Shown in pieces: positions 1,303 to 2,454 of a stretch of 64,000 nt of DNA. The notes below the pieces were generated by a model, which saw only the letters and a program-made list of their open reading frames with translations, searched no databases and was not told the origin of the DNA. The position numbers and the translations under genes are program-made. Numbering within the stretch: the first letter of the stretch is position 1; each line of letters starts with the position of its first letter. The DNA is from Psychromonas sp. CD1 (GTDB lineage: Bacteria > Pseudomonadota > Gammaproteobacteria > Enterobacterales > Psychromonadaceae): NCBI RefSeq assembly GCF_002239585.1, contig NZ_NDFH01000003.1, positions 1,178,001-1,242,000 of the forward strand. Direction: 5' to 3'.

Positions 1303-1440
1303 ATGATTGATCTACGCTCTCAAAATTCTTTGCAAACAAAAACAATATCTTATATTCATTTGTTTTTATTTTTGTTTTTATTTTTATCCACACCCCAAAC
1401 CTGTGCGAATCCCATCCCCACCCGTGCTCTTCGCGCAGCA
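1303..1440 (+). pseudogene. Start of a secreted protein (possibly envC), cut off by vector sequence
   Basis: An ATG at 1303 opens a frame with a short polar segment, then a run of Leu/Phe residues and a TCAN-like end, as expected for a Sec signal peptide. The frame dissolves into GC-rich, garbled sequence from about 1386 and then into vector polylinker. The place immediately after gpmI is where envC, the septal amidase activator, is often found. The envC assignment rests on synteny alone. The low-complexity T-rich stretch could also be poor-quality read, so confidence is low. Confidence 0.25.
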
Positions 1441-1478
1441 GATTCGATTCGAGCTCGGTACCCGGGGATCCTCTAGAG
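1441..1478 (+). other. pUC-type polylinker, left arm (vector contamination)
   Basis: Adjacent SacI (GAGCTC), KpnI (GGTACC), SmaI (CCCGGG), BamHI (GGATCC) and XbaI (TCTAGA) sites occur in pUC18/19 order. Just before them, GATTCGATTC looks like the pUC bases GATTACGAATTC with two A residues dropped, as at the poor start of a Sanger read. About 1386-1440 is GC-rich and matches neither the host style nor clean vector. This is cloning vector, not organism DNA. Confidence 0.95.
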
Positions 1479-1505
1479 ATTTAATATTAAATATATTGAG
1501 CCTGC
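1478..1505 (+). repeat. 28-bp terminal inverted repeat, left copy
   Basis: This 28-base segment is the exact reverse complement of 2059-2086. It starts with the palindrome ATTTAATATTAAAT and ends in GAGCCTGC. The two copies bound the rmuC insert and abut the vector sites TCTAGA and GTCGAC. Identical inverted ends suggest an adaptor, or amplification with a single primer, rather than a transposon. That origin is inference. Confidence 0.85.
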
Positions 1506-2004
1506 GTTCCTGCTGGCACTCGACAGACAGCCCGAACTGATCACCGAAGCGCTGAAAAATAACATTATGCTGGTCAGCCCCACCACGCTACTGGTGGCGT
1601 TACGTACCATTGCCAACCTGTGGCGCTATGAGCACCAAAGCCGTAACGCGCAGCAGATTGCCGATCGCGCCAGCAAGCTGTACGACAAAATGCGGCTGTT
1701 TGTGGACGATATGTCCTCGGTGGGGCAAAGCCTGGATCGCGCGCAGGATAACTACCGCCAGGCGATGAAAAAACTCTCCTCCGGGCGTGGCAATTTGCTG
1801 GCGCAGGCGGAGGCGTTTCGCAGCCTGGGGGTGGAAGTTAAACGCGAGATTAATCCGGAACTGGTGGAGCAGGCTACCGCTCAGGACGAAGAGTTTCGTC
1901 TGCGTGAAGGCGACGGTAAGCAAAATAGCCGCAATGAAGACAACGATTTAGCGGCGAGTTTATCCCCCGAAGCGCAGCCGGCGCGTTTCTTTCACGGTGG
2001 TTGA
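1498..2004 (+). pseudogene. rmuC: Enterobacterial rmuC 3' fragment in the vector insert (contaminant)
   Basis: The frame runs from the insert edge and encodes the last 168 residues of an RmuC-type protein (putative DNA recombination protein; full length about 475). Recognisable stretches include EPAFLLALDRQPELI, TIANLWRYEHQS and QAMKKLSSGRGN. Codon use is GC-rich and enterobacterial, quite unlike the AT-rich genes on either side. The C-terminal tail differs from the E. coli K-12 protein as I remember it, so another enterobacterium is possible. It ends about 55 bases before the right inverted repeat. It is a cloned fragment, not part of this chromosome. Confidence 0.85.
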
Positions 2005-2058
2005 AACGTAGGGCAAATGCGCCCAATCTGTTACACTTCACGAACATTTGACTGATTA

Positions 2059-2086
2059 GCAGGCTCAATATATTTAATATTAAATC
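2059..2086 (-). repeat. 28-bp terminal inverted repeat, right copy
   Basis: This is the perfect inverted copy of 1478-1505. The vector's SalI/PstI/SphI/HindIII polylinker half follows directly. See the left copy for interpretation. Confidence 0.85.
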
Positions 2087-2454
2087 GTCGACCTGCAGGC
2101 ATGCAAGCTTGGCACTGGCCGTCGTTTTACAACGTCGTGACTGGGAAAACCCTGGCGTTACCCAACTTAATCGCCTTGCAGCACATCCCCCTTTCGCCAG
2201 CTGGCGTAATAGCGAAGAGGCCCGCACCGATCGCCCTTCCCAACAGTTGCGCAGCCTGAATGGCGAATGGCGCCTGATGCGGTATTTTCTCCTTACGCAT
2301 CTGTGCGGTATTTCACACCGCATATGGGTGCACTCTCAGTACAATCTGCTCTGATGCCGCATAGTTTAAGCCAGCCCCCGACACCCGCCAACACCCGCTG
2401 ACGCCGCCCTGGACGGACTTGTCTGCCTCCCGGCATCCGCTTTACAGAACAGCT
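2087..2454 (+). other. lacZ: pUC right polylinker and lacZ-alpha region (vector contamination)
   Basis: SalI, PstI, SphI and HindIII sites are followed by the well-known lacZ-alpha coding bases (frame reading [20 protein letters not shown]). The pUC backbone continues through the NdeI site CATATG and the segment GGTGCACTCTCAGTACAATC. From about 2360 the match to pUC19 carries single-base insertions and substitutions (for example TTTAAGCC for TTAAGCC), like the tail of a Sanger read. Host sequence resumes at about 2455. Confidence 0.95.

Follow-up and report, generated by a model that had tools for sequence, protein, structure and literature searches.

The chromosome record of Psychromonas sp. 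CD1 raises the question of how 1,069 bases with a GC content of 55.2% (positions 1386–2454) came to lie between gpmI and rlmJ in a window, the 64,000-nucleotide stretch of DNA analysed here, whose remaining sequence has 37.8% GC. It is almost certain that this segment is an untrimmed Sanger read of a TA-cloned, misprimed PCR product, which was pasted into the assembly at gap closing.

The flanking genes

The 3' part of gpmI (1–1203, forward strand), encoding cofactor-independent phosphoglycerate mutase, is native, contains the Pfam domains iPGM_N and Metalloenzyme, and its protein is 91% identical to that of genome G008, the closest relative searched (one contig of 3,052,410 bases). It is followed by the native start of an envC-like gene (1303–1385, forward strand), whose ATG at 1303 and N-terminus were compared with the G008 gene. 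The gene is truncated within a hydrophobic N-terminus, which on inspection by eye looks like a signal peptide. The G008 counterpart, the next gene after gpmI, contains a Peptidase_M23 domain, and the name envC is suggested by this domain and by the position. The blastn alignment to G008 stops at 1385, so that the start at 1386 given in the initial annotation is accurate, with some further native bases beyond 1385 being possible.

On the other side, rlmJ (2505–3347, reverse strand) is native, matches the Pfam family RsmJ (described as RlmJ) and encodes a protein 89% identical to that of G008; among named organisms, those with the most similar RlmJ are Psychromonas. The AT-rich stretch at 2455–2504 lies outside the vector match and the G008 alignment restarts at 2505; it is probably native sequence downstream of rlmJ.

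Vector arms and the structure of a single read

The segment begins with 55 garbled bases running into vector (1386–1440, forward strand), which have no local alignment to G008 or to the plasmid record GQ149348. The left arm of a T-vector follows (1441–1481, forward strand), with polylinker sites SacI (1451), KpnI (1457), SmaI (1461), BamHI (1466) and XbaI (1472), and ends in TCTAGAGATT; aligned to GQ149348, it has two gaps close to its beginning, while its final 35 bases are exact. The right arm (2083–2454, forward strand) starts with AATC, continues through SalI (2087), PstI (2093), SphI (2099) and HindIII (2105) into backbone; aligned to GQ149348 over 372 columns, it shows 3 mismatches and 7 gaps. 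The nine sites thus stand around the insert in vector order, as the initial annotation had it, and no EcoRI site is present in the polylinker within 1386–2454. That a pUC-type backbone segment is present was likewise correct, although the names pUC and lacZ-alpha are ones we presume for it, as the two annotated features of GQ149348 do not cover this stretch. The same backbone occurs in further records of E. coli, plasmid and phage collections.

The junctions TCTAGAGATT/insert/AATCGTCGAC, that is GATT/insert/AATC, lie in the interval between XbaI and SalI and are identical in the independent record GQ149348. We take them to be those of the TaKaRa T-vector pMD18-T. GQ149348 is described as an E. 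coli plasmid from giant panda intestine and has a pUC-type polylinker with T-vector junctions; it may itself be a laboratory clone, to judge from its sequence.

The differences in the right arm all fall past position 2300 (0 of 217 columns before it and 10 of 155 after it), and the exact run that starts at 2086 extends over 242 bases. Bunching of errors at the far end is the mark of a Sanger read whose quality is declining. Together with a length of about 1 kb and the garbled start, this is the make-up of a single Sanger read, which bears out the earlier suggestion of Sanger-type errors at the edges. A synthetic polylinker and pUC-type backbone surround an insert, as in cloning-vector contamination, and the T-vector junctions together with primer sequence at both insert ends are those of a TA clone.

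The insert

The foreign DNA between the primer copies (1506–2058, forward strand) comprises the 3' end of an Enterobacter rmuC gene, with the stop codon ending at 2004, and part of the rmuC–ubiE spacer; the two genes adjoin in Enterobacter hormaechei NZ_CP077309. Positions 1498–2066 are 96.3% identical to this record (548 of 569 columns), the top hit in the plasmid collection, and the Pfam family RmuC is found in the insert with an E-value of 1.4e-35. Identity to rmuC of E. coli is 81.7–82.7% (18 rmuC rows among the 20 listed). The initial annotation was right in calling the fragment a GC-rich enterobacterial rmuC, but its description as E. coli-type has to be replaced, the sequence appearing Enterobacter-like rather than that of E. 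coli.

The primer and its native site

The insert is bounded by two copies of one 24-mer in inverted orientation, at 1482–1505 (forward strand) and 2059–2082 (reverse strand). A 27-mer that contains it matches the window twice, compared with 0.00 expected from 100 shuffles. The genome holds eight exact copies, of which seven adjoin vector and one, at C3:7110–7133 in contig C3, does not. The gene downstream of this vector-free copy has a Lyase_1 domain and is presumably aspA.

At the right end of the insert, NZ_CP077309 matches the last 8 bases of the primer, GAGCCTGC, exactly, while the AT-rich 5' part is unmatched. At the left end the same record, a 96% relative of the template, matches 7 of these 8 bases. 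The pattern suggests that a single primer misprimed on the two strands of Enterobacter DNA. An origin of the 24-mer in a linker-adapter shotgun library was considered and dropped, given the vector-free copy upstream of aspA and the absence of an Enterobacter match for the 5' part of the 24-mer.

The region of the aspA site shows a break in synteny with G008 at L014 3081–3134 (C3:7080–7133), between a segment ending near a gene we assume to be hpf-like and aspA. L014 268–3081 aligns to G008 578,795–581,591 in forward orientation and L014 3128–4608 to 593,801–595,281 in reverse, the two segments being in opposite orientation and about 12 kb apart, with the 24-mer inside the break. The break may be another hand-made join or a true rearrangement; a search for tRNA genes at the site found none. 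Since the 24-mer sits at this break, it fits a primer pointing outward from a contig end.

Similar debris elsewhere in contig C3

Three further places with debris were found besides the window, all in C3, which makes four in total, and all vector and primer hits listed in the whole-genome searches lay in this contig. The first (L011 3869–5536, C3:214368–216035, debris at 214458–215970) consists of a GC-rich fragment, a stretch of vector backbone and the rmuC amplicon. The 601-base insert, primers included, is present there in identical form at C3:215053–215653, in an orientation to the vector opposite to that in the window. On one side of the debris is an RNase P RNA gene (Rfam RF00010), on the other a region to which G008 has three paralogous matches. 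Its GC-rich fragment shows 75.8–79.1% identity in the 7 rows listed, of which one is annotated as a putrescine importer and two as APC permeases.

The second (L012, about 3077–4240, C3:444576–445739, debris at 444592–445707) is an sbcC fragment with the 24-mer at both ends and vector arms. It is 98.0% identical to Enterobacter hormaechei NZ_CP056156 and 80.6% identical over 83% of the query in one of 5,426 E. coli genomes. The third (L013 2423–3406, C3:866922–867905) is a T-vector polylinker joined to a fragment resembling a terminase large subunit, which has 64.8–70.3% identity to nine Vibrio phage records and lacks the 24-mer; no vector was found to its right. It may be phage or prophage DNA of the metagenome. 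The four places thus carry four different inserts: rmuC, sbcC, the GC-rich fragment and the terminase-like fragment.

The starts of the reads also resemble each other. The string AGATTCGATTCGAGCTCGG, which lies partly inside 1386–1440, is found again where a read begins in L011, and ATGGTGAGGCGTCCAGCTTGCATGCCTGCAGG is common to read starts in L011 and L012, as expected of reads obtained with the same sequencing primers.

The probable source assembly and the proposed origin

PMC5893861 describes the genome of an uncultured organism, Psychromonas sp. CDP1, from the gut metagenome of the amphipod Hirondellea gigas. Eleven contigs were oriented against other Psychromonas genomes, the gaps between neighbouring contigs were targeted by PCR on metagenomic DNA, the products were cloned in pMD18-T, sequenced by the Sanger method and linked manually, and eight gaps were closed, to give a final assembly of three contigs and 1,688,241 bp (PMC5893861). 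The assembly analysed here has three contigs and 1,688,234 bases, 7 off the published total, and we infer that it is this genome. A paper about a symbiont of a hadal snailfish (PMC6965317) was set aside, since its use of pMD18-T was for 16S clones.

The events may be pictured as follows. A primer pointing outward from the end of the aspA-carrying contig would have annealed wrongly, mainly through its 3' GAGCCTGC, to Enterobacter DNA present in the template or the reagents, so that part of rmuC was amplified from both sides by one primer. The product would then have been TA-cloned in pMD18-T, sequenced as a single untrimmed read of 1,069 bases and linked by hand, with its vector still attached, between two contigs of the metagenome-derived Psychromonas genome without spanning any gap. 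The aspA site as a contig end, the placement of the read by hand and the origin of the Enterobacter DNA are the conjectural elements of this scheme. The name pMD18-T is likewise suggested by the protocol of PMC5893861 and by junctions of the kind expected for this vector. A point against the scheme is that the primer belongs to the aspA locus and not to the gpmI or rlmJ ends, between which the clone would have been used.

Compared with the initial annotation, the analysis points to a T-vector rather than plain pUC and, in place of a library clone, to the product of a misprimed PCR, and adds the inverted 24-mer at both insert ends and the three other places in C3. Its central statement, that the sequence between gpmI and rlmJ is not real, is upheld by the vector arms, the primer at both ends and the fitting published protocol.

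Alternative explanations

Contamination of read sets by vector is generally known to occur, and clone reads in the Illumina metagenome might have been placed between gpmI and rlmJ by the assembler. However, garbled bases before the polylinker and differences confined to the far end fit one Sanger read and not many, and the amplicon is present elsewhere as a second clone, inserted the other way round in the vector. As the fitting paper moreover describes gap closing with cloned Sanger reads (PMC5893861), an assembler error is very improbable.

A fragment of Enterobacter type, with 55% GC in a window of 38%, could at first sight be a real horizontal transfer of rmuC into the Psychromonas chromosome. 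A transferred gene would be joined to native DNA without laboratory sequence in between, whereas here polylinker, vector arms and one 24-mer flank the fragment on both sides, and the identical amplicon with vector arms is present at a second place. The warning of the initial annotation against reading the locus as transfer is therefore well founded, and the chance of such an event is negligible. An equally far-fetched explanation is deliberate engineering, with a pUC-type insertion construct introduced into a laboratory strain. Although a vector with an insert between two chromosomal genes has that appearance, vector occurs at four places with four different inserts, and the fitting genome is reported to come from an uncultured gut metagenome (PMC5893861). 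The vector arms and the inverted 24-mer are the grounds on which both transfer and engineering are rejected.

Contig order and the sequence probably missing at the join

The read lends no support to the gpmI–rlmJ join. In G008, 39,125 bases separate the two flanking alignments, and gpmI and rlmJ, oriented to each other as in the window, are 39,316 bases apart. A misordering of the contigs was also examined and is not shown: both here and at the L011 join the contigs follow the order of G008, so that this order may be right although the read does not support it.

The two genes, taking the best gpmI match per genome, are on one contig in 4 of 23 relatives (G005, G006, G008 and G022) and adjacent in none of the four; in G006 the order is reversed, with about 38 kb between them. 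Within the genus the distance between the two genes is not conserved. Nor was gpmI found beside rlmJ in any of the 15 Psychromonas loci, all those of the genus among 80 loci fetched, with at most 8 kb inspected on each side. The interval of G008 includes the envC-like gene, recA, cinA and mutS. In the DNA inspected, the first gene of this block is downstream of rlmJ in 6 of the 15 loci, and mutS and recA are downstream in 5 and 3 named loci, respectively. Since none of the five genes of the block is next to rlmJ in the other 9, this neighbourhood is common to some species only.

Neither the Pfam RecA family (positive in 14 of 14 control genomes) nor MutS_V (positive in 11 of 14) has any match in the whole assembly. 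DNA searches were run with 21,117 bases of the 39,125-base interval, taken from either side of its middle 18,000 and covering the envC-like gene, recA, cinA and mutS; they found no relative of the block in the assembly, except for the native left edge and one 149-base match of 72% elsewhere. Native sequence is probably missing behind the join. The absence of recA and mutS is possibly an assembly gap, because the envC-like gene is truncated at the junk as it would be at a contig end.

Some obligate endosymbionts lack recA. It is nevertheless unlikely, though not extravagantly so, that the symbiont has truly lost the block with recA, mutS, cinA and most of the envC-like gene; such a loss would make it a hadal amphipod gut symbiont without RecA recombination and MutS mismatch repair. 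The genome was published as nearly complete and reduced, with 99.3% completeness by 139 genes and biological meanings given to absences (PMC5893861), compared with 79.91% computed here; genome reduction could be another cause of the lower figure. The words vector, Enterobacter, recA and mutS do not occur in the main text of PMC5893861, and no published correction was found under the accession or strain name in a search that most subscription journals lie outside.

Gene order across the four debris places of C3 is accordingly unsupported, and the adjacent absences (the envC-like gene, recA, mutS and cinA) may be assembly gaps and not gene losses. Unless raw reads bear it out, no biological meaning should be given to the absence of recA and mutS from the record. 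Annotation pipelines may also credit a hadal symbiont with rmuC and sbcC genes that are fragments of Enterobacter DNA.

Comparison with known contamination and T-vector clones

Unscreened vector and foreign inserts are a known contamination of assemblies, and the segment is similar to these in its vector arms, polylinker, contaminant insert and read-end errors. It differs in having the same primer at both ends, in apparently forming a false bridge between contigs and in recurring as debris at four places in one contig. The similarity to a TA clone in pMD18-T (TaKaRa), the kit named in PMC5893861, lies in the GATT/insert/AATC arrangement within the XbaI–SalI part of the polylinker, a comparison made here via GQ149348, which has the same junctions.
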